A stretch of 64,000 nucleotides of DNA from Victivallis vadensis (lineage in GTDB: Bacteria > Verrucomicrobiota > Lentisphaeria > Victivallales > Victivallaceae). How positions within the stretch are numbered: position 1 is the first letter of the stretch; each line of letters opens with the position of its first letter. The stretch is from positions 1-64,000 of the forward strand of contig NZ_QEKH01000014.1 in assembly GCF_003096415.1 (NCBI RefSeq), given 5' to 3'. The notes under the pieces were generated by a model. It did no database searches and was not told the origin of the DNA. It saw nothing but the letters and a program-made list of their open reading frames with translations. Made by a program: the position numbers and the translations under genes. This document shows, in pieces, positions 16,211 through 32,874 of this stretch.

Positions 16211-16924
16211 TCAGTTTTTCTGCCTGGAAGGTGTTTTCGGTTCCGGGAACGTTGTTTCGTTCAGAACCCGTTTGTAGTAGAATTTTGAGGTGTAGATCGC
16301 CGCTGCCGGATTGTGGCCCAGTACCCGGTCCTTGACGATGAACGTCACTGCCGGCGCCTTGCTGTGACGGGTGAAAATCGCGTCGTGCCCGACACACAGG
16401 CCGACCAGCACATTCAAATCCGCTCCCCAATCGTTGAGCACCTGGGCCTGAAGCGCCGGATTGCAGCAGGATTCGTTGCAGCCGGGGCAGACTTTCAATT
16501 GGTCCGGCAGGCCGATTTCCGTTTTATCGATCGCACCGACCTTGCAGATCACCGTTTTCGTTTCGATTCCGGCTGTCCGTACGATCTTGGCGTAGATCGA
16601 TGCTTCGTCCAGCAGGCCGATGCAGCTTGCAATGCCGAGCTTCTTCACGCCGAGCTTCATCGCAAAGCGGATCGTTTCCTCCAGCCGGGTCAGACGCCCG
16701 TAATATTCGCCTTCGATTTCGGCGGCGGCCCGGGCGAGCCGTCCGTCAATGCCGTCGCTCTCATACAATCTGCGCGTGAGTTCCACGGCATCTTTGTATT
16801 CCTCGGTCAGGCAGAAAGCCGGATATTGCTTTTCACGCCGGTAGCAGTTGCGAACTGCGCACTCCGAGCAGCTCAGGCTGCATTTTTTTTCATCTTCACT
16901 CATCGGATAAGTCTCCATTTTCAT
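16211..16924 (-). CDS. DUF1847 cysteine-rich metal-binding protein
   Basis: 237 residues. The N terminus has a dense cysteine cluster (KKCSLSCSECAVRNCYRRE) and a second cluster CPGCNESCCNP follows mid-protein, with conserved segments IASCIGLLDEA and VGLCVGHDAIF. This matches the uncharacterised DUF1847 family, found mainly in anaerobes and thought to bind metal or Fe-S. It starts five bases after the ThiF fragment and is the only intact gene between the MetY gene and the graveyard. Its role in sulfur metabolism is inference from position. Confidence 0.85.
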   Translation of the reverse strand: MKMETYPMSEDEKKCSLSCSECAVRNCYRREKQYPAFCLTEEYKDAVELTRRLYESDGIDGRLARAAAEIEGEYYGRLTRLEETIRFAMKLGVKKLGIASCIGLLDEASIYAKIVRTAGIETKTVICKVGAIDKTEIGLPDQLKVCPGCNESCCNPALQAQVLNDWGADLNVLVGLCVGHDAIFTRHSKAPAVTFIVKDRVLGHNPAAAIYTSKFYYKRVLNETTFPEPKTPSRQKN

Positions 16925-17247: not shown

Positions 17248-18537
17248 TCAGATCAGTTTCAGGGCCTCGTCGAGAGCGGCGATGATGTCGTCAACGTGTT
17301 CGAGTCCGATGGAAAGACGAACGAGTTCGGGCGTGAGTCCGGCCTTGCGCTGGTCCTCGTCGGAGAGCTGCGAATGGGTCGTGCTCGCCGGATGGATGAT
17401 CAGGCTCTTGGCATCCCCGACATTGGCGAGAATGCTGAACAGCCCGATGTTGTCCACCAGTTTGATGCCCTCGGCGCTGCCGCCCCTGACGCCGAATACG
17501 ACCATTCCGCCCGCGCCGTCCGGCAGGTATTTCTGCGCGAGATCATGCGACGGATCGCCGAAAAGTCCCGGGTAGCGCACCCATGCGACCTTCGGATGAT
17601 GCTTCAGGAACTCCGCCACCTTCCGCGCATTGGAGCTGTGGCGCTCCATGCGCAGCGGAAGCGATTCGACTCCCTGCAGGAAGAGCCATGCCGCGTCCGG
17701 CGCGAGCGTCGGCCCCTGATTGCGCAGCCCGACCGTACGCAGCCGCAGAATGAACGCCAGCGGATTCAGTTCCCCGAGATCGTGGGCGAAACGCAGTCCG
17801 TGATAACCGCGGTCAGGTTCGTTGTAGAGCGAGAACTTCGGATCGGTCCAGTCGAAATTCCCGGCATCGACGACCACTCCTCCGATGCCGGTTCCATGTC
17901 CTCCGATCCACTTGGAAAGCGAGTGGATCACGATGTTCGCGCCGTGCTCGATCGGACGCAGCAGCGTCGGCGGCGTGAAGGTCGCATCGACGATCAGCGG
18001 CAGGTGATGCTTTTTCGCAATCGCAGCGTAACCTTCGATGTCGGCGACGTCGAGCGCCGGGTTGCCGACGGTTTCGATATAAAGCGCACGGGTCTTTTCA
18101 TTGATCGCAGCCTCTGTCGCCGCAAAATCGTTGACCGGCGCGAAGCGGACCGTGATTCCCTGCTGGGGCAGGATCGCGTCGAACTGCGTGAAGGTGCCGC
18201 CGTAAAGATTGTTTGCGGAGACCAGTTCATCGCCCTGCCTGAGAATATTGGTAACGGCGAAATAGATCGCCGCCGTGCCGCTGGAAAGCGTCAGCGCCGC
18301 TGCGCCGCCGTCGAGCTGCGCCAGGCGTTTTTCCAGCACGTCGTTGGTCGGATTCATCAGCCGGGCGTAGATGTTGCCCGGCTCCCGCAGCGCGAACAGG
18401 TCGGCGCCGTGCTGCGAGCTTTTGAAGTTGTAAGCGGTGGTGCGGTAAACCGGCACAGCCCGGGCGCGGGTGGTCGGTTCGATCTCCTGGCCGGCGTGGA
18501 GCGCCAGCGTTTCGATATGATAGTTTCGATTGTTCAT
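17248..18537 (-). CDS. metY: O-acetylhomoserine (thiol)-lyase
   Basis: 429 residues, PLP-dependent Cys/Met metabolism family. It makes homocysteine from O-acetylhomoserine and sulfide. The PLP lysine lies in VIHSLSKWIGGHGTGIGG, and the N-terminal signature is FETLALHAGQE-like (YHIETLALHAGQE). Length and the insert after SKFSLYNEP-type residues fit the MetY branch rather than cystathionine gamma-synthase. ATG at 18537 is chosen because GGGAGAAG lies upstream and the longer frame overlaps cysK. It is 28 bases downstream of cysK and surely in the same operon. Confidence 0.92.
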   Translation of the reverse strand: MNNRNYHIETLALHAGQEIEPTTRARAVPVYRTTAYNFKSSQHGADLFALREPGNIYARLMNPTNDVLEKRLAQLDGGAAALTLSSGTAAIYFAVTNILRQGDELVSANNLYGGTFTQFDAILPQQGITVRFAPVNDFAATEAAINEKTRALYIETVGNPALDVADIEGYAAIAKKHHLPLIVDATFTPPTLLRPIEHGANIVIHSLSKWIGGHGTGIGGVVVDAGNFDWTDPKFSLYNEPDRGYHGLRFAHDLGELNPLAFILRLRTVGLRNQGPTLAPDAAWLFLQGVESLPLRMERHSSNARKVAEFLKHHPKVAWVRYPGLFGDPSHDLAQKYLPDGAGGMVVFGVRGGSAEGIKLVDNIGLFSILANVGDAKSLIIHPASTTHSQLSDEDQRKAGLTPELVRLSIGLEHVDDIIAALDEALKLI

Positions 18538-18565
18538 GGATGTCTTCTCCCGGTGTTGCGTTGAC

Positions 18566-19492
18566 TCAGTGATTGAACAGCCAGCCGGAGAGATAGCGTT
18601 CTCCCGTATCCGGCAGCAGGGCGATGATCCGTTTGCCCGCATATTCCGGGCGCTTGCTCAGTTCGAGCGCGACGAAAAGCGCGGCTCCGGAACTGATGCC
18701 GACCAGCAGCCCCTCCTGCTTCGCGGCTGCACGGGCGGTGTCGCCCGCCTCTTCGGCTCCGACCGGAAAAATCTCGTCGATGATCTGCGTATCGAGTACC
18801 GAGGGGACGAATCCGGCGCCGATGCCCTGAATTTTGTGCGGTCCGGGCCTGCCGCCGGAGAGCACCGGGGAGTCGGAGGGCTCCACCGCGATCAGCTTCA
18901 CGTCCGGATTGCGCGCTTTCAGCACTTCGCCGACTCCGGTCAGCGTTCCGCCGGTTCCGACGCCGGCGACGAAGGCGTCGACTTTGCCGCCGGCATCCTG
19001 CCAGATCTCCTCGGCGGTCGTGTGCTTGTGGTATTCCGGATTGGCCGGGTTGTCGAACTGTTGAGGAATGAATGAACCCGGATGCGTTTTGGCAAGTTCC
19101 TCCGCTTTGGCGATTGCGCCTTTCATGCCGAGTGCGCCTTCGGTCAGCACGAGCTCCGCGCCGTAGGCGGCGAGCAATTTGCGGCGCTCAATGCTCATGG
19201 TGTCCGGCATGGTGAGGATCAGCCGGTAACCTTTGACTGCCGCAACGAGGGCGAGGCCGATACCGGTATTGCCGCTGGTCGGTTCGATGATCAGCGCTCC
19301 CGGCGCAATCTTTCCCGCCTTTTCCGCCGCCTCGATCATGCCGATGGCGATGCGGTCCTTGACGCTGCCGGCAGGGTTGAAGGATTCCACTTTGACCAGC
19401 ACTTCCGCATTGCCCCGGTTGAGTTTGTTGATCCGCACCAGCGGGGTTTTGCCGATTTTTTCTAGAATGTCATTGCAAATTTTTTCGGACAT
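18566..19492 (-). CDS. cysK: Cysteine synthase A (O-acetylserine sulfhydrylase)
   Basis: 308 residues, fold-type II PLP enzyme making cysteine from O-acetylserine and sulfide. Lys45 in NPAGSVKDR binds PLP, TSGNTG (72-77) binds the substrate carboxylate, and [13 protein letters not shown] is the phosphate loop. AAAGGAGG precedes ATG 19492. It heads an operon with metY. A promoter-like pair and an operator-like site lie upstream on the minus strand. Confidence 0.95.
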
Positions 19493-19512
19493 GATAAAAC
19501 CTCCTTTTTTCC

Positions 19513-19533
19513 AAAACTCTACTTTTTTGGTTG
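19513..19533 (-). promoter_or_regulatory. Rrf2-type operator candidate before cysK
   Basis: Minus strand CAACCAAAAAAGTAGAG, aligning without gaps to the sites before rrf2 and the lipoprotein gene (consensus near CnACCnAAAnAGTAGRG). Confidence 0.5.
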
Positions 19534-19542
19534 TGATATCAT

Positions 19543-19570
19543 AAAATACAGCGTCCCCGGATAAAAACAA
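19543..19570 (-). promoter_or_regulatory. Possible cysK promoter
   Basis: TTGTTT, 16 bases, TATTTT on the minus strand. The operator candidate starts nine bases downstream of the -10 box, the same arrangement as at the lipoprotein promoter. Confidence 0.4.
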
Positions 19571-19649: not shown

Positions 19650-19678
19650 TTGAACCTACTCTATCGGTAGTGTATATT
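19650..19678 (+). promoter_or_regulatory. rrf2 promoter with embedded operator
   Basis: TTGAAC, 17 bases, TATATT. The spacer contains the imperfect palindrome ACCTAC-TCTATC-GGTAGT (19654-19671). A repressor bound there would block RNA polymerase, consistent with autoregulation by the Rrf2 protein. Confidence 0.6.
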
Positions 19679-19726
19679 GCTCAGGATGGTTTGCAGGAAA
19701 CGAGATGAATGAAAAAGAGGAAAGTA

Positions 19727-20173
19727 ATGAAAATTTCCACGAAAGGGCGTTACGGTTTGCGGATTCTTCTGGATATCGCCTTGTACCGCGTCGGAGACAA
19801 ACCGCGCATGATCCGTGAAATCGCGAGCAATCAGGAAATTTCCGAAAAGTACATCAGCCGCCTGATCATAGAACTGAGGAAAGCGGGATTCGTGAGGTCG
19901 GTCCGCGGTGTGAATGGCGGTTATACCTTGACGCGCAAGCCGGAAGACATCAGCGTCCTCGATGTACTCGAAACAATGGAGGGGCCGGTCGCCATCGTGG
20001 ACTGCATGAACTCCTCGGGAGAAGTGTGCCGCCGGAAATCACAGTGTCCCACGCAACGGATGTGGACGGAAATCAATCAGAAAATCCGGAGCGCCTTTGC
20101 CGCCTACACCTTGAAGGATCTGGTGGAGCTTTATATCTCCAACGGCGAAACCGTCCTCGACTACTGCATCTGA
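19727..20173 (+). CDS. Rrf2-family regulator (CymR/IscR-like)
   Basis: 148 residues. The N-terminal winged helix (MKISTKGRYGLRILLDIALY ... ISEKYISRLIIELRKAGFV, RGVNGGYTL) is typical of Rrf2 proteins. A three-cysteine region DCMNSSGEVCRRKSQCPTQ matches the Fe-S ligand area of IscR, although some CymR proteins keep cysteines there too. ATG at 19727 follows GAGGAAAGTA. Its place between the cysK-metY and ssu blocks suggests it senses cysteine or sulfur status and represses both; that is inference supported by shared operator motifs. Confidence 0.88.
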   Translation: MKISTKGRYGLRILLDIALYRVGDKPRMIREIASNQEISEKYISRLIIELRKAGFVRSVRGVNGGYTLTRKPEDISVLDVLETMEGPVAIVDCMNSSGEVCRRKSQCPTQRMWTEINQKIRSAFAAYTLKDLVELYISNGETVLDYCI

Positions 20174-20640
20174 CCGCCGCTTCCGGCGGAGATGAAACAA
20201 TTCAGACTTGCGAGAAATGCCCGGTCTTCCGCAATGCTGCGCCCGCGGGTGGTCAGATAGCCGCCGGTAATCATGCTGTTCATCCCGGCAAGCATCAGGA
20301 GTCCCTGGAAGTCTTTCATCGTCGTCTCGCGTCCTGCGGCGAATTTCAGCATCTTCGCGGGGTTGACCAGCCGGAATATCGCAGATGACTTGGCGACATC
20401 GGCAACCTCCATGACCGGAAGATGCTCCAGCGGCGTTCCCCTGACCGGAAGCAGGACATTCAGCGGAATGCCGTCCACATCCAGCTCGCGCACCGCAAAT
20501 GCCATTTTCACCCGGTCGCGCCAGATTTCGCCGAGTCCGAGAATTCCGCCGCAGCAGATTGATACGCCGTACTGCTGCGGACCTCCGTTCCGGCTCCTGC
20601 GGCTCCGTTCAAAGCGGAAGTCAAGGCGCGTTCGGGGCAA
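20161..20640 (-). pseudogene. bioB: Biotin synthase 3' fragment
   Basis: The minus strand reads YGVSICCGGILGLGEIWRDR then VKMAFAVRELDVDGIPLN, a clear match to the second half of BioB, the radical SAM enzyme that inserts sulfur into dethiobiotin. The N-terminal CxxxCxxC cluster is absent. Further upstream only scrambled BioB-like pieces (IGVCPERALTSALNGA in another frame) remain up to the ssuB gene. The 3' end overlaps the rrf2 stop by 13 bases. Confidence 0.8.
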
Positions 20641-20756: not shown

Positions 20757-21560
20757 TCAGATGCCGCCGCCGTTCCGGACTTCGGAACGTTTTGCGAGAC
20801 GTTCGAGCATGTCGCTGCGGTAAACTGCCGGAATCTTCTGCTGAAGCGCCTTGATTTCCGGCTGCCGGAACAGAGCGGTGCGATCGTATCGACGCGAAAT
20901 CCGATTTCCCTCGTCGGCGATAATCCGCCCGGGGGAGCTGGAGAATACCACGAGCCGCGTTCCCAGATAAAGGGCCTCGTCGATGTCGTGCGTCACGAAA
21001 ATCACCGTCCGCCGTTTTCCGGCATCACGGTGCAGATTGCGCACCAGCTCCTGCAGGAGCGCCCGGTTTACCGGGTCCAGCGCGCCGAACGGCTCGTCCA
21101 TCAGCAGAATCCCGGAGGGGGACGCCAGCGCCCGCGCGATTGCCGCCCGCTGGCGCATGCCGCCGGACAGCGCCTCCGGATACTGGCCGAAAGAACCGCC
21201 CAGTCCCACGGTTTCGAGATAAGACTCCGCCAGCGCCTTTACCTCCTTCCGGTTTTTATCCGGATATGCGGCATGCAGTGCCAGCGTCAGATTCGCCCCG
21301 GTCGTCATCCAGGGGAAGAGCGAATAATCCTGAAAGACCACGGAACAATGGCGATCCGGCCCGGCGACTGGTTCGCCGTCGATCCGGATTTCTCCGGCCG
21401 ACGGCCGTTCCAGTCCGGCAAGCAGCCGTAAAAGCGTCGATTTTCCGCAGCCGGATTGTCCGAGAATACAGAGAAATTCGCCGTTTTCGATGTTCAGGTC
21501 AATTCCCTGAAGGATCGTCTTCGAATCATAGGAAAAATCAATATGCCTGCATTCAATCAT
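20757..21560 (-). CDS. ssuB: ABC transporter ATPase, nitrate/sulfonate/taurine type
   Basis: 267 residues. Walker A GQSGCGKST (34-42), Q-loop VVFQDYSLFPW, signature ALSGGMRQR, Walker [14 protein letters not shown]-loop VTHDIDEA. It couples ATP hydrolysis to uptake through the adjacent permease. The start overlaps the permease stop by eight bases, so the two are translationally coupled. Substrate is inferred as an organosulfur compound from the sulfur context, but the family also imports nitrate, thiamine precursors and other small molecules. Confidence 0.88.
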   Translation of the reverse strand: MIECRHIDFSYDSKTILQGIDLNIENGEFLCILGQSGCGKSTLLRLLAGLERPSAGEIRIDGEPVAGPDRHCSVVFQDYSLFPWMTTGANLTLALHAAYPDKNRKEVKALAESYLETVGLGGSFGQYPEALSGGMRQRAAIARALASPSGILLMDEPFGALDPVNRALLQELVRNLHRDAGKRRTVIFVTHDIDEALYLGTRLVVFSSSPGRIIADEGNRISRRYDRTALFRQPEIKALQQKIPAVYRSDMLERLAKRSEVRNGGGI

Positions 21561-22446
21561 GTATATTCCTCCGGTAACGCAGCAGCCTGCGCTCCAGTTT
21601 GTTGAAAAGCCACATCAGCGAAGTGACGACGATTCCGATAAAGAGGATGCCGACGATCACCCGTCCGTAATCCGCGAAGTCGGAAAAGTTCTTCACATAC
21701 CAGCCGAGTCCCTCAGTTGCGCCGATCAGCTCGGCGGCGGTCAGCAGGAGAAAACTGAAAATCAGCCCGAGCGAAGCGCCGGTCAGGATCGACGGCATCG
21801 CTCCCGGCAGCAGAATCCGGAAAAAGAACACGCTCCTTTTCAAGTGGAGCATTCTGGCTGAATCCAGCAAAGAATCCGGAATCGTCACTACTCCGGAAAC
21901 CGTATTGACGAAAACCGGCCAGAACGCTCCCGACCAGATCACGAAGATCGAAGCCGAACGGAAACTCGGCAGAAGCGCAATCGCATACGGAATGTAGACG
22001 ATCGGGGGAATTGCGCCCAGCACGCGGGAAAACGGTTCCGCTGCGGCGCGCAGCCTGCGGGAGCTTCCCACGGCGATTCCGGCCGGAATCGCCGTCACAA
22101 GGGCGAGCCCGTAGGCGGAACCGAGCAGATAGGAAGAAGAGAGCAATCCCCTGAGCATATCGCCCAGTTCCGCGAAGAACAGTGCGAGAATCGCCGCCGG
22201 CGGGGGAAACAGCACCGGGTCGGCAAGTCGGAAATTCGCACTGGCCAGCTGCCAGACCAGCAGAACCGCTTCGATTACAGTGGCGGAATCGATCACGGCG
22301 TTGCGCTTCTCTTCCCGCCGGGCGAGCCGGGCGCGTACTGTCGTGACGGCCGGCAGCGCGAGAGCGAGCAGCGCAAGCGGATAATCCCGGTTTCCCAGCG
22401 CGGCCGCAAACAGCGCGAGGCTTATGACTGCGAGCAGATATTTCAT
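21553..22446 (-). CDS. ssuC: ABC transporter permease, nitrate/sulfonate/taurine type
   Basis: 297 residues with about seven membrane helices, more than usual for the family because an extra N-terminal hydrophobic section (residues 1-35) precedes the standard six. The EAA-like loop (LLDSARMLHLKRSVFFFRIL then LPGAMPSIL) contacts the ATPase. ATG 22446 is chosen since the longer frame would overlap the binding-protein gene. Operon order is secretins, binding protein, permease, ATPase. Confidence 0.87.
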   Translation of the reverse strand: MKYLLAVISLALFAAALGNRDYPLALLALALPAVTTVRARLARREEKRNAVIDSATVIEAVLLVWQLASANFRLADPVLFPPPAAILALFFAELGDMLRGLLSSSYLLGSAYGLALVTAIPAGIAVGSSRRLRAAAEPFSRVLGAIPPIVYIPYAIALLPSFRSASIFVIWSGAFWPVFVNTVSGVVTIPDSLLDSARMLHLKRSVFFFRILLPGAMPSILTGASLGLIFSFLLLTAAELIGATEGLGWYVKNFSDFADYGRVIVGILFIGIVVTSLMWLFNKLERRLLRYRRNIHD

Positions 22447-22466
22447 GACCGATTCCACTCCCTGTT

Positions 22467-23492
22467 TCAATTGTTCGCTTTGAAGAAGGCGTCCATTTCC
22501 CGGTATACCGGATCGTCGGGCCACCGTTTCAGCACTTCATCCAGTGCTTCGCGGTAAATCGATGTGTCGATATGGCGGCTGATGTCGACCCGGTTTTCCG
22601 GCAGGTAGCCGATCTCGTTCATCGTATTCCAGAAATCCACGGTTCCCTTTCTCAGAGGGTCGGGGTTGGAGTCGAAGGTATGATCGGTATAGGTGTCCGC
22701 GCGGACAATGCCGGGATCCAGCTTGAAACTGCCGGCGAATATCTTCACGGTTTCCTCCTGATTTTCCCGGTAAAATCTGTACGCCCGGATTTCCGCGATC
22801 AGATATCGCTTGTAGATTTCCCGTTTCGCCTTCAGGTCCTTCGTGTTGGCGATCAGCCGGCAGCAGGTGTAGGCGGGCTGGAAATCGGCGATGTAATTCG
22901 ACACCACAAGACCGTAATTTTTTTTCGCCAGCGAAAAGTGCGGGCTGAATACGATCCCTGCATCCACCGCGCCCTTCCGGACGGCTTCCACCACGGCGCC
23001 CTGGCCGCCGAATTCAATGATTTTAAGATCTTTGTAAGGATCGACCCCCGCCTTTTTCAACGCGCCGCGAAAAATCACGTCGCCGGTGGAGAGTTTGCCA
23101 AGGCCGACTCTTGCTCCCTTGAAGTTCGCAAGATTCCGGAACTTCCCGGCATTCTCCGGCTTGACGATGATCGCCTGACCGCCGATCATCATGCCGCCGA
23201 AGACGGTGAAGTCGACTCCTCGGGCGATGAAAAGCAGCGGCGCCGCCGTGCCGAAGGTCCCGACATCAAGTTTTTTCGCCCGGACCGCTGCGCACCCTTC
23301 CGCAGTGGTATTGAATTGAAACAGATCGGCATCAATTCCTTCTTCGGCGAAAAAGCCTTTTTCCCGGGCGATGAAGTGCAGTCCGTGCGCCGGTTCCGCC
23401 AGATAGCCGACCCTGACCTTGTCTGCGGCGAACGTCCCCGAAGCCGTGAGAGCCAGAATTGCCGAAAGAGTGATTTGGGAAATGTTGTTCAT
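22467..23492 (-). CDS. ssuA: Periplasmic substrate-binding protein, SsuA/NMT1 type
   Basis: 341 residues with a signal peptide (MNNISQITLSAILALTASGT then FAADK). The mature protein has the NMT1/ThiY-like fold: VRVGYLAEPAHGLHFIAREK then GFFAEEGIDADLF, GTAAPLLFIARGVDF, and a C-terminal helical extension to ADTYTDHTFDSNPD. It captures the solute for the ssuC/ssuB pair. It lies 27 bases after the second secretin gene. Confidence 0.88.
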   Translation of the reverse strand: MNNISQITLSAILALTASGTFAADKVRVGYLAEPAHGLHFIAREKGFFAEEGIDADLFQFNTTAEGCAAVRAKKLDVGTFGTAAPLLFIARGVDFTVFGGMMIGGQAIIVKPENAGKFRNLANFKGARVGLGKLSTGDVIFRGALKKAGVDPYKDLKIIEFGGQGAVVEAVRKGAVDAGIVFSPHFSLAKKNYGLVVSNYIADFQPAYTCCRLIANTKDLKAKREIYKRYLIAEIRAYRFYRENQEETVKIFAGSFKLDPGIVRADTYTDHTFDSNPDPLRKGTVDFWNTMNEIGYLPENRVDISRHIDTSIYREALDEVLKRWPDDPVYREMDAFFKANN

Positions 23493-23519
23493 GTTGAAAC
23501 TCCTTGATTTTTTTTCAGA

Positions 23520-25142
23520 TTATTCAATTGTGTCGGAATCAATTCCGTACTGTTCAAACCCGAGATTGTTGAGCGGATTCCGCACACCGGCACGGACGTC
23601 CTCGACGATTTTGCCGACATTGGCCTGGATCTCCGTCGGTACAGGATCGAACGGCGTACTGTATTCCGCGCTCGCCAGAATCACGATCTGCGACTTCTTA
23701 GTCGATTCGCTTTCGGTCGAGAACAGCCAGCCGAGCAGCGGAAGGTCTTTCAGGAGCGGCACTCCCGCGACACCCCGGACGATGTCGAACTTCCTCAGGC
23801 CGCCGATCACGAAATTCTTGCCGCTGTTGCCGATCTGCACTTCCGTTTCGATTTCGGACTTGTTCAGACGCGGTTCCCCGCTGGAATCCCAGCCGATCAG
23901 CGAAACGCTCTCCGCATGGAGCTTCAGAGTGGTGCTGTTGGCCGTGACGATCGGCTCGACGAGATCAAGCGAAAAACGAAACCCTTCTCCGACTTTGGTG
24001 ATCTGCTGCTGCCCCTTCCGGATTTCGAGTTTTCCTGCGTCCGGCACATCCGGTTCGCCTGCGAACGGCGCCGGCAGCCTGCCGGTGTTGCCGGGTTCGA
24101 TTTTTTGCGACACGTCGTCATAGAACAGGCCGGAACCGACATTGATTGAGGTTGTGGTGCGGTTTTTGGCATTCAGCACGCCGCTGGTCAGCACCCGCGC
24201 TTTGCCGCGGCTGGTCAGAAAATCGATGTACTTGCTGTTCCACTTCGGATTGAAATTGAAGAATTCCGTTTTGCTGGAGCCGGAGTTGTTCACTCCCGCA
24301 CCGAACGTGGAAGCCCAATTGCTGCGGAAACGCCCTCCTGCGGAAAAGAAATCCGCGCCGTCGTTGTTTTTCCAGCTCTGAAAATCCAGACCGATCTTGT
24401 CGTCGTTCTCCGCGAAGATTTCGACCACTTTGTAGCGGAAACGGATCTCCGGAATCGGGCGGTCGTATTGCGCAAGCATATTGCTGATATGCTTCCATGA
24501 CCAGAAAGGAGCCGCGACGAACAGCGCGTTAAGTCCGCCGTCGACGATCAGTTTGTCCACTCCGTTGTCGAATTCCACATCAATCGCCGAAGCGCCCACT
24601 TCCGAAACCATTTTCTTCAAAGTCGCCGCTGAATTGATCTTCGGGAAGTAGATGAATTTCGGACGGCCGCTGGAGGCGGTCAGCCCGGGCTGGTCAAGCC
24701 GTTCCACCAGTTTGTCGATGCTCTCTCCGTAACCGTCGTCCTCAAACCGGCAGGCTTCCGCCGAGACGATCAGCAGCTTGCGCCCATTGTTGAATTTGAG
24801 CGCAGCGACGCTCGGCTGATTCTGATCCACGCGCTTGGCGTTGATGATGGCGTTCAGATACCAGCGCAGTCCGTAGGGGTCCGCATGTTTGAGCTCGTAA
24901 GTTCTGGTAATGACGTACGGGTCGTTGTTGTCGCGGATGAAATGGATCGCTTTCGTCCCGTCCTTGACTTCCAGCCGCAGCTGCGCCTGCACGCTGCTGC
25001 TGCCGTAACCGGCGCTGGGGGCGTTGAAATCGGCTTTGGGCTTGCCGGGAATCTGCTCCGGCACAAGTTTGATCGTTTCGCCCACCGTCAGGATGGAAGC
25101 GGGAAAAAGTGCGGCCAGAAGGAGAAATATCTTGTTGTTCAT
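23520..25142 (-). CDS. Secretin-like outer membrane protein 2
   Basis: 540 residues with a signal peptide (ends near residue 20). N-terminal N-domain-like segments (VITRTYELKHADPYGLRWYL; KLLIVSAEACRFEDDGYGES) precede a secretin core whose C-terminal signature is VPLLKDLPLLGWLF followed by VILASAEY. Secretins form multimeric gated outer-membrane channels. A start ATG with only weak ribosome binding context lies 21 bases after the upstream paralogue. Its linkage with an ABC importer operon is unusual. It could instead be an orphan secretin of a pilus-like system. Confidence 0.8.
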   Translation of the reverse strand: MNNKIFLLLAALFPASILTVGETIKLVPEQIPGKPKADFNAPSAGYGSSSVQAQLRLEVKDGTKAIHFIRDNNDPYVITRTYELKHADPYGLRWYLNAIINAKRVDQNQPSVAALKFNNGRKLLIVSAEACRFEDDGYGESIDKLVERLDQPGLTASSGRPKFIYFPKINSAATLKKMVSEVGASAIDVEFDNGVDKLIVDGGLNALFVAAPFWSWKHISNMLAQYDRPIPEIRFRYKVVEIFAENDDKIGLDFQSWKNNDGADFFSAGGRFRSNWASTFGAGVNNSGSSKTEFFNFNPKWNSKYIDFLTSRGKARVLTSGVLNAKNRTTTSINVGSGLFYDDVSQKIEPGNTGRLPAPFAGEPDVPDAGKLEIRKGQQQITKVGEGFRFSLDLVEPIVTANSTTLKLHAESVSLIGWDSSGEPRLNKSEIETEVQIGNSGKNFVIGGLRKFDIVRGVAGVPLLKDLPLLGWLFSTESESTKKSQIVILASAEYSTPFDPVPTEIQANVGKIVEDVRAGVRNPLNNLGFEQYGIDSDTIE

Positions 25143-25163
25143 GAAGTAAAACCTTTCGGAAAA

Positions 25164-26654
25164 TCAGTTGAGTTCTTCCGCAACGACTTCCGGACTGACC
25201 GGAGGAGCCGGCAGAAGTTCGGGGTGGACCAGACGGGCTTCGGCTGTGACGATGATGTAGCTTTTCTCTTTCAGCGTGGTGGTCGTGCCGAACAGATACT
25301 TGAGCACCGGAATCCGCGAGAGAAACGGGATGCCGATCGTTTGTTCAACATCGGTCTCCTTTACATAGCTGCCGAGCAGTTTCTCCTGCTTGAAGCCAAG
25401 TGTCAAAGCGCCGTCGATCCGTGCGTAATTGCTGAGTTCATCTCCTCGATTGTTGCGTTCCACCACGCTGTTCACTCCGAGGTTGTAGGAGAAAATCACT
25501 CCGCCGGTTCTGTTGTTTTCATAAAAATCCCCGGTCGCCGGCACCATGCCGACGGAATCCACTTCACCGGTCTGTGCACCGAAGCAGATCACCGGGTTGG
25601 TGATTTTGAGCGCGACGGCCGGAGTTTCAGCTTGGTCGGCCACGACATCGGTTCGGTCGTCATCATCCTTTTTGAGGTTCTGGTAGCTCGGCGTCAACTC
25701 TGCATAATAGGTGCGCGTGACATCGCGGCCGTCGCCGTAAAGCGGCGTATTGAGAAAGGTCAGGTCCGCATTGGAAACCAGCCGGGCGTTGCCGGATTGC
25801 TGAAGCAGCCGCACGAAACTCAAATCGAACTGCGGCGCCGTGAAAAATCCACCGTAGCTCCAGCTCGTGGAGAAATTTTTCGCAAGATCGGCAAACTGTT
25901 TCGCTCCACCGAGGAGTTGCAGAACCGCTTCGTTGGAGAAAACCTTTCCGGCATCATATCCGGCTGCGAACAGATTCAATCCCGGTCCGTTTTTCCACGC
26001 CAGATAGTCCACGCCGATGTCACGCAGTTTGCTTTCGCGCACCTCATAGTAGTTCAAACGCAGATTCACCTGCGGCACCGGGCGGTCCAGCCGCTGTACC
26101 CAGGCGAGAATCGCCTTGGCGGAAGCCACATCATCTTTCCAGTAGATCGTATTGGTTTCCGCATTGAGATAGGCCGCGCCGATGCCCGTGCGCAAAGCGC
26201 CATTGATGATGTTGACGATATCCTGCGCCGCCCGGTAACGCGGCGTGTAGCTGATGCGGGTCACGCCGGTGCCTTCGATCACGGAGCCGAACTCGTCAAG
26301 TTTGCCCGGCTGGTCGATTTTTGCGATCAGGTCGTCGATCAGCGGGATGATTTCCGGGCCGGTGGAAACGATCAGCCAGTTCTTTTTTGCCGAAAAGTAG
26401 TTGACCCGTTCGACCCGCGACTGCGAGTCGTAACGCTTGACCGCGTTCTCGACAAAGGGACGGATATCGGTCGCCTTGACGTATTTGAGTTCATAGATTT
26501 TGCTTGTAATATTGGTTTGGGCGTCATCCTGAATCAGACGGATCTGCCGCACCTCGTCAGGCACGTTTTTTCTGCCGGCAAACGCCGGAGACTGTCCGAA
26601 GGCGGAGACGGAAAAACCCGCCGCCAATATGATATGGAAAATACTGTTGTTCAT
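25164..26654 (-). CDS. Secretin-like outer membrane protein 1
   Basis: 496 residues, signal peptide ending near SVSAFGQ. N-domain-like segment KIYELKYVKATDIRPFVENA, then a secretin core ending IGIPFLSRIPVLKYLFG and YIIVTAEARLVHPE. Paralogous in layout to the next gene. It is the first gene after a strong terminator at 26718-26742, so it either has its own promoter within 60 bases or depends on read-through. Confidence 0.8.
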   Translation of the reverse strand: MNNSIFHIILAAGFSVSAFGQSPAFAGRKNVPDEVRQIRLIQDDAQTNITSKIYELKYVKATDIRPFVENAVKRYDSQSRVERVNYFSAKKNWLIVSTGPEIIPLIDDLIAKIDQPGKLDEFGSVIEGTGVTRISYTPRYRAAQDIVNIINGALRTGIGAAYLNAETNTIYWKDDVASAKAILAWVQRLDRPVPQVNLRLNYYEVRESKLRDIGVDYLAWKNGPGLNLFAAGYDAGKVFSNEAVLQLLGGAKQFADLAKNFSTSWSYGGFFTAPQFDLSFVRLLQQSGNARLVSNADLTFLNTPLYGDGRDVTRTYYAELTPSYQNLKKDDDDRTDVVADQAETPAVALKITNPVICFGAQTGEVDSVGMVPATGDFYENNRTGGVIFSYNLGVNSVVERNNRGDELSNYARIDGALTLGFKQEKLLGSYVKETDVEQTIGIPFLSRIPVLKYLFGTTTTLKEKSYIIVTAEARLVHPELLPAPPVSPEVVAEELN

Positions 26655-26717: not shown

Positions 26718-26742
26718 AAAAAACGGACCCGGCACGGGTCCG
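26718..26742 (-). terminator. Rho-independent terminator between lipoprotein and secretin genes
   Basis: Minus strand CGGACCC-gtgcc-GGGTCCG followed by six T: a 7-bp perfect stem with U-tract. It separates the lipoprotein transcript from the secretin-ssu operon. Confidence 0.9.
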
Positions 26743-26928: not shown

Positions 26929-27395
26929 TCAAAGAAAACCAAAGCCGATGACTCGGCTTTCGCCATGCACGGGAGCAATCAGCGCGCGAAACAGAATCTC
27001 CTGCTCAATGACGGAATCATCGCTGCCGGTTCTGCGGAAACAGACTTTCCAGACCAGTGTTTTCAGAACCGGAGTTTTCAATTCCCCGCGATATTCAAAA
27101 GAGTGGATGGTTCCCAGCGTGTTCTGCAGCTGCAGGAACGATTGCGAGAATGCTTCTGGTGTAAATTCCTTCTGAAGATTTTCCGCGAGGACCTCTTTCA
27201 GCAGTTCATATTTTTTTCCTGAAAGGCTCTCAGCACGGCATCTGCGCATTGAAGCGCGGCGCTCCGGTCATATTCCCCGCCGGAAGCGGGATTTTTTTCT
27301 GGTTCCGCCGGGATTTGAACACACCCGGCAACAAAGACGGCCGCTGTCAGAAGCACCGCCTGAAATCGGGCAATTCGGATGATCTGCTTTTTCAT
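26929..27395 (-). CDS. Lipoprotein with a -1 frameshift at an A7 tract
   Basis: From ATG 27395 (AAGGAG upstream) the frame gives a lipoprotein signal with lipobox FVAGC, then a charged linker and ADAVLRAFQEK, and stops at 27198. A -1 shift at seven A (plus-strand T7 at 27211-27217) joins it smoothly to KYELLKEVLAENLQKEFTPE then AFSQSFLQLQNTLG, which runs to a stop at 26929. The fused product of about 155 residues resembles small DUF3887/DUF4019-like exported domains. Either the gene is broken, or the homopolymer causes slippage. It lies upstream of the secretin-ssu block. Confidence 0.6.
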
Positions 27396-27420: not shown

Positions 27421-27441
27421 TAATCTCTACTATTTTGATCG
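27421..27441 (-). promoter_or_regulatory. Rrf2-type operator candidate before the lipoprotein gene
   Basis: Minus strand GATCAAAATAGTAGAGATTA, aligning with the sites at 19513-19533 and 19654-19671. It lies seven bases downstream of the predicted -10 box, so a bound regulator would block initiation. Confidence 0.45.
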
Positions 27442-27448
27442 ATTTTGT

Positions 27449-27476
27449 AAAATACATCATATATGCATATTTTCAA
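27449..27476 (-). promoter_or_regulatory. Lipoprotein gene promoter candidate
   Basis: TTGAAA, 16 bases, TATTTT on the minus strand in a very AT-rich stretch. Same spacing and -10 sequence as the cysK candidate. The remaining sequence to 27700 holds no gene I can see. Confidence 0.45.
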
Positions 27477-27700
27477 GTTTTAAAATCTAAAAATATCTAT
27501 TTTTTTAATATTCACAATTAAAAAGGTAGCGTTTATAATCAAGGCCTCCTCTTTCCGAATCTCATTTCGAATCGCTCATGTATTCTTCTGAAAACTCAAG
27601 CTGTCTTCGTCTGCGTCAGCCGAACCGGACGATATCTCCCGGCATCACCTTCGTCATTATTTACCGTTTCTTTCACAATTCTGTAATGCAGGAAGCATTC

Positions 27701-27720
27701 CCTGAACAAATTTGTTCAGG
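27701..27720. promoter_or_regulatory. Perfect 20-bp palindrome, enhancer site candidate
   Basis: CCTGAACAAATTTGTTCAGG is a perfect palindrome located 43 bases upstream of the sigma-54 -24 box. That is a reasonable place for an enhancer-binding protein dimer, although somewhat closer than most. Confidence 0.6.
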
Positions 27721-27762
27721 CCGGGCGCTTCTCTTCCGCCGGTTCACGCTCATTTTGCCGGC

Positions 27763-27778
27763 TGGCACGGAATTTGCT
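27763..27778 (+). promoter_or_regulatory. Sigma-54 promoter of the urea/guanidine operon
   Basis: TGGCACG-GAAT-TTGCT matches the -24/-12 consensus at every conserved position, with GG and GC exactly 12 bases apart. Transcription should start near 27789, giving a 60-base leader with a CGGGAGT/ACTCCCG hairpin (27792-27820). The promoter needs an activator ATPase, consistent with nitrogen control. Confidence 0.9.
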
Positions 27779-27849
27779 TTATCGGATGGCACGGGAGTCC
27801 GATATGTTTCATCACTCCCGCAGCAATCTTTAAGCAAGGAGAGTATGAC

Positions 27850-28839
27850 ATGAAATGGTTCAGACATTTTCTACTGACGGCGACGGCCGTGGTCGCGGCC
27901 GCCGTCTCCGCCGCCGATAAACCGGTATTGCGCATCGGCTACAGCGACTGGCCGGGCTGGACCGCCTGGGAGATCGCTGACAAGAAGGGGTTTTTCGCAA
28001 AGCACGGCGTCGATGTGAAGCTGGAATGGTTCGAATACGGCCCGCAGATGGATGCGTTCGCCGTGGGACGGATCGATGCGGCAGGCATCTCCAACGGCGA
28101 TGCGATGGTGCTCAACGCCTCCGGCGCACGCAACATCATCATCATGATCAACGATTACTCCAACGGCAATGACAAGATCGTCGGCGCGCCCGGCATCGGT
28201 TCGATCAGAGAACTGAAAGGCAGGAAAGTCGGCGTTGAGATCGGCTGCCTGAGCCACATGCTGCTGATGAACGCGCTCGCGAAGAACGGCATGACGGAAA
28301 AAGACGTGACGCTGGTCAACATGCCGACCCACCAGGCGGCGCAGACTCTCGCCTCCGGCGACGTTGCGGCGATCGTCGCGTGGCAGCCGAATTCCGGGGC
28401 GGCGCTCGAACTGGTCAAAGGCTCCCGGGAACTTTACACCAGCGCCGACGAACCCGGCATCATCTACGACACGCTGGCGGTTTCGGCGGAGAGTTTGCTG
28501 AAACACCGAGCCGAGTGGAGCAAGGTCGTCGCGGCGTGGTATGACGTAATCGACTACCTGAACGATCCGGCCAACCGGGACGAAGCGATGAAAATCCTGG
28601 CCGCGCGGGTCGGCGTGACGCCGGAAAAATATGCGACCTATATGAAAGGGACCCGGTTTCTGACCGCCGGCGAAGCGATGAAAATCTTCCGCAAGGCGGA
28701 CGGTTTCGGTTCGGTCTACGGCTCCAGCGCGATTACAGACAAGTTCTTCGTCGACAACAAAATCTATAAAGAGAACGTAAACATCCCCCGCTGCATCGAC
28801 CCGAGTTTCACCCGGGCGTACCTGAAGGGGAGGAAATAA
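27850..28839 (+). CDS. ABC substrate-binding protein, urea carboxylase-associated
   Basis: 329 residues with signal peptide (MKWFRHFLLTATAVVAAAVS then AADK). Mature NMT1-like fold, LRIGYSDWPGWTAWEIADKK, matches the subfamily that accompanies urea/guanidine carboxylase operons. It binds the nitrogen substrate in the periplasm. ATG 27850 is chosen since the open frame upstream contains the sigma-54 promoter, and AAGGAG lies nine bases before it. First gene of a nine-gene operon. Confidence 0.9.
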   Translation: MKWFRHFLLTATAVVAAAVSAADKPVLRIGYSDWPGWTAWEIADKKGFFAKHGVDVKLEWFEYGPQMDAFAVGRIDAAGISNGDAMVLNASGARNIIIMINDYSNGNDKIVGAPGIGSIRELKGRKVGVEIGCLSHMLLMNALAKNGMTEKDVTLVNMPTHQAAQTLASGDVAAIVAWQPNSGAALELVKGSRELYTSADEPGIIYDTLAVSAESLLKHRAEWSKVVAAWYDVIDYLNDPANRDEAMKILAARVGVTPEKYATYMKGTRFLTAGEAMKIFRKADGFGSVYGSSAITDKFFVDNKIYKENVNIPRCIDPSFTRAYLKGRK

Positions 28840-28858
28840 CCGGTTCGGGGAGGCGATT

Positions 28859-29917
28859 ATGACTTTGCGGCAAGGATGCTTCGCCATCCGCAAAAAACTG
28901 ACCCGGCGACAGGAAGGGACGCTTCTGGTGCTGTCGTTCGTGCTGCCGCTCGCATTGTGGGCGGCGGTCAGCTACACTCCCTTCCTCTATCATCCGGACA
29001 TGCGGATCACGGATGCGGGCGACAGCCTGCTCTGCGCGCCCGGCGACCGGATCGACCGTTCGGGGTTCGAGCGGGAAAACAAGGCGATTCTCGAAAACGG
29101 CGGCGTCCCGATGCGGGGCGTCCGGGCCAATCCGGCCTGGCTGCCCGCGCCGCACGAGGTGGCGGCCGCGCTGGTGACCGCATTCAAGACGCCGCCGCGG
29201 CGCGACGGGGAGCCGTGGTTCCATCAGAGCATCGCGCACAGCATCCGGGTGGTGTTCCTCGGATTCCTGCTGTCGTCGCTGCTGGGAGTGCCGCTCGGCA
29301 TCCTGTGCGGGGCGTTCCCGTTCTTCGAGCGGCTGTTCGAGCCGGTGGTGGAATTCATCCGCTACTTTCCGGCCCCGGTTTTCGCGACTCTGGCGGTCGC
29401 AATTCTCGGGATCAACGATGCGCCGAAGGTCGCGATCATCGTGATCGGCACCTTTTTCCAACAGCTGCCGATGATCGCCAATACCACGCGGCAGGCCGAT
29501 CCGGCGCTGATCGAAGCGGCCCAGACGCTCGGAGCAGGCCGCAAGCGCATCCTGATGCGGGTGGTCATCCCGTCGGTGCTGCCGAAACTCTACAAGGACA
29601 TGCGCATCCTGCTCGGCTGGGCGTGGACCTATCTGATCGTCGCGGAGGTGGTCGGCACCACGACCGGCATCAGCTGGTTCATCACCCAGCAGGCCAAATA
29701 CCGGAATTTCGCGAACGTCTACGCGGCGATCGTGATCATCGGCTGCATCGGCCTTGCCTGCGACATGTTCCTCGCGTGGTTCGCAAAACAGATTTTTCCG
29801 TGGGAGGCCGGCTGCCGGACCCGGCTCTACCGGATCTTCGCGGAGGTCTTCGGTCCCCGCGACCAGGTGTTCAGCTTCACCCTGAAAAAACATTCGCCGG
29901 AAAACGTGGAGGAGTAA
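28859..29917 (+). CDS. ABC transporter permease, urea carboxylase-associated
   Basis: 352 residues. One N-terminal helix, then a periplasmic section of about 90 residues ([20 protein letters not shown] onward), then five to six helices with the family loop [20 protein letters not shown]. The periplasmic insert is characteristic of this transporter subfamily rather than ordinary SsuC. GGGGAGG precedes the start. Second in the operon, followed two bases later by the ATPase. Confidence 0.9.
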
Positions 29918-29919
29918 TC

Positions 29920-30807
<888 letters not shown>

Positions 30808-30824
30808 GGAAGGAGAATTTTATC

Positions 30825-31544
30825 ATGGAAAACAATCTTGTTCTGCTCACCGAAACCGTAATCGACGGCGGCTGGAATTATTCCCGGATCGTGAAGCGCG
30901 GCCAGCTGCTGCGCCTGACCGATCTGGAAGGCGGAGCCAACGTATCGGCGATGTTCTACAACGCCGGAAACTTTTCCGAACGGTTCAATCTCGGCGATAC
31001 GCTGAAAATCCAGCACATCTGCCGCCTGACGAAACACTGCTGCATCTACTCCGACATGGGACGCATCCTGATGAGCGTGCCGGAAGACACCTGCGGCTGG
31101 CACGACATGCTCTGCGGCTGCACCCATGCCGCGCTGATCGAGAAGCGGTTCGGCAAAAAGGAGTATCAGGAAGCGCACAATGAATTCTACCGCAACGGTT
31201 ACGATTCTCTGCTCGTCGAACTGGGCAAACACGGCATGACCAAGCGGGACGTGACCGAAATCATCAACTTTTTCAGCAAGGTCACGGTCGATGAAAAAGG
31301 GGCGATGACCTTCGTGCCGGGCAATTCTCCGGCGGGAAGCCATGTAGACCTGCGGGCCGAGATGGATACGCTGGTGGTGCTTGATACCGGCATGCATCCG
31401 CTGAGTCCGGCGACCGAATATCCGCGCAAGCCGGTCAGAGCGGCGCTCTATGCGTGCGAACCCGGCCGCAAAGACGATCCGTGCTTCACCTGGTGCCCGG
31501 AAAACGAACGCGGATTCGCCGCCACCTCGCTCTACAACCTGTAA
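30825..31544 (+). CDS. DUF1989 protein, carboxyguanidine deiminase subunit / UAAP1-like
   Basis: 239 residues of the DUF1989 family, earlier called urea carboxylase- or urea amidolyase-associated protein. In guanidine degraders two such subunits form carboxyguanidine deiminase, converting carboxyguanidine to allophanate. Conserved features seen are GQLLRLTDLEGGANVSAMFY, a Cys/His metal-type patch (EDTCGWHDMLCGCTH) and INFFSKVTVDEKG. It is the most divergent of the three in this operon, with an added C-terminal CFTWCPENERG. AAGGAGA precedes ATG 30825. Confidence 0.85.
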   Translation: MENNLVLLTETVIDGGWNYSRIVKRGQLLRLTDLEGGANVSAMFYNAGNFSERFNLGDTLKIQHICRLTKHCCIYSDMGRILMSVPEDTCGWHDMLCGCTHAALIEKRFGKKEYQEAHNEFYRNGYDSLLVELGKHGMTKRDVTEIINFFSKVTVDEKGAMTFVPGNSPAGSHVDLRAEMDTLVVLDTGMHPLSPATEYPRKPVRAALYACEPGRKDDPCFTWCPENERGFAATSLYNL

Positions 31545-31560
31545 TCCGGAGGACGCAATC

Positions 31561-32217
31561 ATGGTTACCCGATATCTGGAAAGCCCCCGCAAGGAAGCCG
31601 ACGCCGTCCACGTCGAAATCGTAAAGGCCGGAACCGGCTGGATGTATCCGGTCCGGAAAGGACAGATTCTGCGGATCGTCGACATCAACGGCAATCAGGC
31701 GGTCGACACCATTTTCTACAACGCCGACAATACCGCCGAACGTTACAGCGTACAGCAGACCGTGCAGCACCAGCGGAACGCGCTGGTCGGCGTCGGCACC
31801 GACCTGATGAGCAGCGAGGATCGCGTGATGCTGACGGTGGTGGCCGACACCTGCGGCGACCACGACACGCTCGGCAGCGCCTGCTCGTGCGAGAGCAACA
31901 TGATCCGCTACGGTTTCGGCCACCGCTACCAGCACGCCTGCCGCGAAAGTTTCCTCGCCCGGCTGCTGGCGCACGGGATGGACAAGCGCGATCAGGTCAA
32001 CAACCTGAATTTCTTCATGTACGTGCCGCTGGACGAGCGGGGCAATCTGAATTTCGCCGACGGCATCTCCTCGCCGGGCAAGTACATCGAACTCGAAGCG
32101 AAGATGAACGTGCTGGTGCTGGTCTCCAACTGTCCGCAGTTGAACAATCCCTGCAACGGCTATGATCCCACTCCGGTCAAGATGATCGTGTGGGACCCGG
32201 AAGGAGGCTGCCGATGA
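31561..32217 (+). CDS. DUF1989 protein, UAAP2-like, copy 1
   Basis: 218 residues. Key segments GQILRIVDINGNQAVDTIFY, ADTCGDHDTLGSACSCESN, LNFFMYVPLDERG and LEAKMNVLVLVSNCPQLNNP mark the second DUF1989 subgroup. It would pair with the first protein to form the deiminase or a carboxylase-associated complex. GGAGG lies 8 bases before ATG 31561. It shares long near-identical blocks with the next gene, showing an in-operon duplication. Confidence 0.85.
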   Translation: MVTRYLESPRKEADAVHVEIVKAGTGWMYPVRKGQILRIVDINGNQAVDTIFYNADNTAERYSVQQTVQHQRNALVGVGTDLMSSEDRVMLTVVADTCGDHDTLGSACSCESNMIRYGFGHRYQHACRESFLARLLAHGMDKRDQVNNLNFFMYVPLDERGNLNFADGISSPGKYIELEAKMNVLVLVSNCPQLNNPCNGYDPTPVKMIVWDPEGGCR

Positions 32218-32867
32218 ATCCGAAACTCAAAGCGGTGGAACGCGATCCGGCCGAGGCCGTCTGCTCCGCCGTGGTCAAGGCCGGAACCGGCTGGCTGCAT
32301 GAGGTCCGGGCCGGACAGATCCTGCGGATCGTCGACCTGTGCGGCAACCAGTCGGCGGATGTGCTGCTCTACAATGCGCACGACACCGCCGAGCGTTACA
32401 ATGTGAACAACACCATTGCGGCGCAGCGCAGCACGCTGATCGAGCTCGGCACCGAACTGCGTTCCAACGACGACAATGTGATGTTCACGGTCGTGGCCGA
32501 TACCTGCGGTGAGCACGACACGCTCGGCAGCGGCTGTTCGGCGGAGGGCAATGCAATCCGCTACACCGACCGCACCCGCTTCATGCACAGCTGCCGCGAC
32601 ACCTTCGTGCGCCACTTTTCGGACATGCCCGGCATGAGCAAGCGCGACCAGACCTGCAACCTGAACTTCTTCACCAAAGTTCAGCTCGGCACGACGGGGA
32701 GCCTCGAATTTGTGGACGGCATCTCCGGCCCGGGCAAATACGTGGATCTCGAAGCGAAGATGGACGTGCTGGTGCTGCTCTCCAACTGTGCGCAGCTGAA
32801 CAATCCCTGCAACGACTACAACCCGACTCCGGTGCAAATGCTCATCTGGGACGCCGAGAAAGGATAA
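32214..32867 (+). CDS. DUF1989 protein, UAAP2-like, copy 2
   Basis: 217 residues. GQILRIVDLCGNQSADVLLY, ADTCGEHDTLGSGCSAEGN, LNFFTKVQLGTTG and LEAKMDVLVLLSNCAQLNNP parallel the preceding protein almost block by block, with the same predicted metal Cys/His set. The start overlaps the previous stop (ATGA) and follows GAAGGAGG. Standard guanidine or urea carboxylase operons carry two DUF1989 genes, so this third one is extra. Confidence 0.85.
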   Translation: MNPKLKAVERDPAEAVCSAVVKAGTGWLHEVRAGQILRIVDLCGNQSADVLLYNAHDTAERYNVNNTIAAQRSTLIELGTELRSNDDNVMFTVVADTCGEHDTLGSGCSAEGNAIRYTDRTRFMHSCRDTFVRHFSDMPGMSKRDQTCNLNFFTKVQLGTTGSLEFVDGISGPGKYVDLEAKMDVLVLLSNCAQLNNPCNDYNPTPVQMLIWDAEKG

Positions 32868-32874
32868 GTGTTTT

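Follow-up and report, generated by a model that had tools for sequence, protein, structure and literature searches.

A tandem secretin pair heading an ABC importer operon in a sulfur gene neighborhood of Victivallis vadensis

Known secretins and importers in comparison with the locus

Secretins are the gates through which proteins, pili, and phage leave the cell, and they also take part in DNA uptake in competence. Most members of the family serve export, and the N0 domain couples secretins to inner-membrane parts. HofQ, judged by its family name, constitutes a precedent for the use of a secretin in uptake. To our knowledge, the SsuABC and TauABC importers have no dedicated secretin, and no nutrient importer equipped with two paired secretins has been described. 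Among the literature titles listed for secretins (Lentisphaerota, Victivallis, Planctomycetes, nutrient uptake, heteromers, and leakiness) and for DUF1847, none concerns paired secretins in importer operons, which is weak evidence of absence.

The stretch of Victivallis vadensis DNA analyzed here (the window, 64,000 nucleotides) contains the following five-gene array:

25164..26654, minus strand: SecA, a secretin of 496 aa and the first gene of the pair (signal peptide, two N1-type domains, and secretin domain)
23520..25142, minus strand: SecB, a secretin of 540 aa and the second gene of the pair (Pfam Secretin, AlphaFold model, and Foldseek)
22467..23492, minus strand: periplasmic binding protein (SBP), SsuA/NMT1-like (Pfam NMT1, 66 bits)
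21553..22524, minus strand: ABC importer permease, SsuC/TauC/NtrB-like (Pfam BPD_transp_1, 74 bits; NCBIfam)
20757..21560, minus strand: ABC importer ATPase, SsuB/TauB/NtrCD-like (Pfam ABC_tran, 113 bits; NCBIfam)

The initial annotation had described two secretins heading SsuA-, SsuC-, and SsuB-like genes at 20757-26654, and all five indeed lie there on the minus strand. The spacing of 21-27 bp that it had given holds for SecA-SecB (21 bp) and SecB-SBP (27 bp) but not further downstream, where SBP and permease, and permease and ATPase, overlap. The separating terminator or promoter that would have spoken against its proposal is not seen: the SecB-SBP junction has neither a terminator-like nor a promoter-like site on the minus strand. 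Its remark that no other secretion gene is present is true of the operon but not of the window, which encodes a 732-aa protein with two tandem T2SSE domains, resembling two fused PilT ATPases (50984-53182, plus strand); outside the operon, the genome also contains T2SS and pilus-type loci and T2SSE-type ATPases. Directly after the importer ATPase, a short ORF (20161-20640, minus strand) is limited to the BATS domain of a protein resembling BioB and looks like a truncated biotin synthase gene.

SecA and SecB are true secretins. Both exceed the Pfam cut-off for the secretin domain (PF00263, 27.5 bits), SecA with 34.5 and SecB with 67.7 bits, and SecA is additionally matched by Secretin_N (36 bits against a cut-off of 28.2). 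Sequence profiles, for which 30-34 relatives were used, match the solved structures of GspD, PilQ, pIV, and InvG/MxiD (SecB to GspD at 7e-19 and SecA to phage pIV at 4e-14). The AlphaFold models are of moderate confidence (mean pLDDT of 71 for SecA and 64 for SecB); Foldseek relates both to GspD/PulD/InvG/PilQ/pIV with a probability of 1.0, and their secondary structure comprises two N1-type domains followed by the secretin domain. Domain scores and predicted folds thus agree on membership in the secretin superfamily, as originally annotated. The two proteins are distant paralogs (HHalign probability of 100%, 23% identity), and most relatives of SecB possess a C-terminal tail of the NxGFxQxxLD type.

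GspD/PulD and PilQ resemble SecA and SecB in the secretin domain, the N1-type domains, and the fold. SecA and SecB differ from them in the lack of a detected N0 (Pfam scan and AlphaFold models) or AMIN domain, in forming an obligate paralogous pair, in the absence of adjoining motor or pilus genes, and in scores far below the curated cut-offs (52 and 64 bits against 351 for GspD, TIGR02517; 52 and 59 bits against 284 for PilQ, TIGR02515). The phage export secretin pIV and the DNA-uptake secretin HofQ are likewise similar in the secretin domain, but they are single genes outside importer operons, and the HofQ scores of the pair (27 and 33 bits) are a long way from the cut-off of 554. Of the motor, platform, and pilin genes of a type II secretion or type IV pilus cluster, the operon has none, either in the window or at the other loci where the pair adjoins the importer (linked loci). 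As the operon is free of motor and pseudopilin genes and N0 was not detected, nothing indicates that the pair is coupled to a secretion motor.

The importer shares its three components and a sulfur gene neighborhood with SsuABC and TauABC, but a secretin pair stands upstream and the importer scores lie below the curated sulfonate and taurine cut-offs. In particular, the SBP reaches 111 bits against 163.5 for NCBIfam SsuA_fam, short of the curated score for an SsuABC aliphatic sulfonate importer, and a sulfonate would be a candidate substrate only. The TonB-dependent SusC-SusD pairs offer an analogy only: there, too, the genes for two components of the outer membrane belong to an import operon for a particular nutrient, but the proteins are unrelated to SecA and SecB, and a search of the V. 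vadensis genome for TonB plug domains returned none.

The obligate pair and its association with the importer

In the window's order of Lentisphaerota, SecB directly follows SecA in all 82 fetched SecA genes. Two SecB genes without a full SecA both lie at contig ends. Within a phylum sample, SecA occurs in 47 of 195 genomes, all from this order, and the V. vadensis genome itself encodes three more tandem pairs (contigs C10, C15, and C30), all without an importer downstream. That the two proteins form separate homomeric rings and not a mixed one, whatever the cargo, has only slightly less than an even chance: solved secretins are treated as homomers and each protein carries a full secretin domain, but the obligate 1:1 tandem (median gap of 18.5 bp over the 82 pairs) and the broadly congruent SecA and SecB trees suggest a fixed partnership.

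A small lipoprotein gene accompanies 43 of the 82 pairs. In the window it precedes SecA, a gene that the initial annotation had overlooked together with the additional pairs and the sulfur genes nearby:

26929..27395, minus strand: DUFlp, small lipoprotein gene with the lipobox VAGC (alignment with L045; G and L numbers designate genomes and loci)

No Pfam or NCBIfam family matches DUFlp above cut-off. In the window, a one-base shift at an A7 run (27217-27211, minus strand) disrupts the reading frame, while the gene is intact in the sister genome (G005, L045); a real frameshift, slippage, or a sequencing error could each account for the break. In a clade with longer SecB, a MarR-type regulator is kept in 30 loci (L079, L087, L093, and L096-L124), mostly directly after SecB, which gives a DUFlp-SecA-SecB-MarR module. 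Other secretins of the collection have other neighbors. In L014:3874-9129 (minus strand), genes of the HlyD, ABC ATPase, and MacB types come after a lone secretin of 571 aa, which thus adjoins a MacAB-like exporter in place of the expected TolC. Two long secretins of 850 and 836 aa follow a 622-aa protein, PilM-like by eye, in L012:6933-16601 (minus strand), a cluster that presumably resembles the Akkermansia Amuc_1098 region.

Orthologs of the SBP, searched for at E <= 1e-70 in 388 genomes of the phylum, are rare. They occur in 10 of the 388 (one at just 38% identity) and further in G007 and in additional, mostly rumen, genomes found by name. SecB lies upstream of the SBP ortholog in all 14 decidable genomes, and a full SecA precedes it in 13; the remaining one (L161) has its contig end at SecB, with a DUF1847 gene inserted before the SBP. 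A contig end also falls inside the SBP gene of G020. The gene order is hence kept beyond V. vadensis, in several lineages, a point on which the initial annotation had staked its proposal. Compared with the window, the other linked lineages show 45-60% identity for SecB and 77-87% for the SBP. One linked contig belongs to G298, a genome of a different family in the class; its similarity to the window is unusually high, so that misbinning or transfer is conceivable.

The linkage has a narrow distribution. It is confined to one sub-lineage of the pair-bearing order, and the linked loci make up two or three clades only. SecAB is present and an orthologous SBP absent in G008, G010, G031, G098, G062, and G090, and importers of other phyla at 38-45% identity lack SecAB. 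Several more distant importers in other phyla are located near genes for cysK and O-acetylhomoserine sulfhydrylase. A general specificity of the pair for importers was rejected, as most SecA-SecB pairs in the order have no adjoining importer. ABC importers were seen near six unlinked pairs (L046, L061, L085, L087, L131, and L134), too few cases to establish a general enrichment, and a BPD-type permease was seen at none of the 20 control loci used for comparison.

Sulfur genes, a common promoter motif, and a leader frame

The importer genes of the window are neighbored by a sulfur island:

16211..16924, minus strand: DUF1847 protein, a recurrent neighbor of the importer (Pfam, 187 bits)
17248..18642, minus strand: O-acetylhomoserine sulfhydrylase, OAHS (NCBIfam TIGR01326, 597 bits, cut-off 495)
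18566..19570, minus strand: cysK, cysteine synthase (NCBIfam cysK, 457 bits, cut-off 351)
19709..20173, plus strand: Rrf2-family regulator with three cysteines (Pfam Rrf2, 144 bits)

The regulator clearly belongs to the Rrf2 family (144 bits against 30 in Pfam; 130.5 against 73.3 for TIGR00738), and it falls below the curated cut-offs for CymR (122 bits against 195) and IscR (101 bits). The combination of cysK, OAHS, and Rrf2 is found beside the linked locus in the window, G298, and G007; in G020 the three genes adjoin the importer, and some rumen genomes have a partial set nearby. On the other side of the array, a divergent operon (27712-36474, plus strand) encodes a second NMT1-type SBP with its permease and ATPase, a pair of DUF1989 proteins, and a carboxylase that is biotin-dependent, contains carboxyltransferase domains, and resembles urea or guanidine carboxylases. 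An Rfam scan of the window returned a tRNA as its only match, with no riboswitch.

The motif WWWNNCTACYNWWW recurs in the promoters of the linked locus and of cysK/rrf2. Its copies at these sites, and a promoter-like element between two of them, are the following:

27422..27435, plus strand: motif copy AATCTCTACTATTT, upstream of DUFlp-SecA
27456..27484, minus strand: promoter-like hexamers TTTAAA-17-TATGAT between two motif copies (consensus match only, 9/12)
27521..27534, minus strand: motif copy AAACGCTACCTTTT, inside the plus-strand promoter-like site of the divergent operon (27511-27539)
19514..19527, plus strand: motif copy AAACTCTACTTTTT, upstream of cysK
19662..19675, minus strand: motif copy ATACACTACCGATA, upstream of rrf2

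Five copies were counted in the window, where 0.46 would be expected; two of them lie between cysK and rrf2 and two at the DUFlp-SecA promoter. The fifth (9199-9212, minus strand), seemingly in or beside a long ORF with no evident sulfur gene, may be due to chance. Across loci, the motif is present in front of 11 of the 13 linked pairs and 4 of the 74 unlinked ones (Fisher p about 3e-9, which is indicative only because the loci are related and the pattern was partly read from them). Both linked exceptions are particular: in L056 an OAHS gene lies ahead of SecA and has the motif before it, and the contig of L164 breaks off there. The occurrence of one motif at both the operon and cysK/rrf2 is a stronger point than the p-value, and the likely binder is the Rrf2 regulator. 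A search of the V. vadensis genome for the palindrome TACYN6GGTAGTGTAT at two mismatches gave six sites, fewer than the reversed control. Together, the island and the common motif strengthen the sulfur assignment that had been made from the SsuABC-like genes.

In the rumen relatives, a short cysteine-rich frame with an RMRCC core (MFQESMVFRMRCCTCFAAE in one of them) is located just before SecA (L050-L054, L156, L158, L162, and L164; also L047:5819 and L056:5946). All 11 DNA matches to the core in 2.86 Mb stand before SecA. The frame is a likely cysteine-responsive leader peptide. The frame was not found in the window, L045, or L075; where the relatives have it, the window has a hairpin:

26724..26742, minus strand: terminator-like hairpin of 8 pairs (7 G-C) followed by T6, 70 nt before SecA and identical in the sister genome

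L047 has both motif and leader and no adjoining importer, a hint that SecAB is in itself part of the response to sulfur.

A candidate outer-membrane gate for a sulfur solute

The reading preferred here, to which we assign a probability of roughly 45%, is that the secretin pair is induced by sulfur limitation and serves as the outer-membrane gate for the sulfur solute of this importer. In the window's lineage, the operon of an ABC importer for a sulfur source would have taken up one SecA-SecB copy, and it would be controlled jointly with cysteine synthesis via the common motif, to which the neighboring Rrf2 regulator probably binds. When sulfur is limiting, SecA and SecB would be made, and the small lipoprotein would probably help the pair to reach the outer membrane. 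There, the two proteins, possibly in a shared ring, may form a gated channel through which the sulfur solute enters to reach the SBP and then the permease-ATPase importer. We infer Rrf2 binding, induction, outer-membrane location, inward passage, and the nature of the substrate from genome context and predicted control sequences. As no TonB plug domain was found, specific entry across the outer membrane would have to use other proteins. The retention of the SecB-SBP linkage while SecB diverged, the tight spacing, the motif, the leader, the obligate pairing, and the absence of motor genes and N0 all count in favor of such a gate. Against it count that most pairs are not beside importers, that L047 lacks one, that the linked loci are related and supplied part of the motif pattern, that the G298 contig may be misplaced, and that the importer scores stay below the curated sulfonate and taurine cut-offs; moreover, a small solute is not obviously in need of a secretin-wide pore.

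The main rival is that SecA-SecB constitutes an export channel under sulfur limitation, either for a sulfur-scavenging protein (e.g., a sulfatase or a protease) or for a filament, driven by a type II or pilus motor whose genes lie at another place in the genome. The importer would then take up the product, and the common operon would merely reflect common regulation. The mostly exporting nature of the secretin family, the T2SS locus and T2SSE-type ATPases of the same genome, and the sulfur-type control retained without an importer in L047 are all consistent with this. However, the N0 domain is not detected, no pseudopilin, motor, or exported-enzyme gene occurs in the operon at any linked locus examined, and the strict adjacency to the SBP would be unexplained; the missing domain and neighbors count against export and make it less probable than the gate. 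Less probable still is a general envelope module unrelated to sulfur uptake, which came to be fixed in front of the importer by chance and was co-inherited: the many pairs of the order are mostly without an importer, come with a lipoprotein of their own and, in the clade with longer SecB, a MarR regulator, and are linked in just two or three clades, but a sulfur-type promoter and leader, missing from unlinked pairs, precede SecA, and the linkage was retained while SecB diverged to 45-60% identity.

A wider form of the gate reading holds that a dedicated two-component secretin, possibly a mixed ring, acts as a nutrient-specific and nutrient-regulated import gate, and that the many such pairs with Rrf2 or MarR regulators nearby could partly replace TonB receptors or specific porins in the order; we consider this less likely than not. 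Paired secretins heading a sulfur-import operon occur in a group of gut bacteria. If the gate reading is true, they would represent a new route for small molecules across the outer membrane, in a genome without a detected TonB plug domain, and SecA-SecB would constitute a testable case for a secretin ring built of two different subunits.
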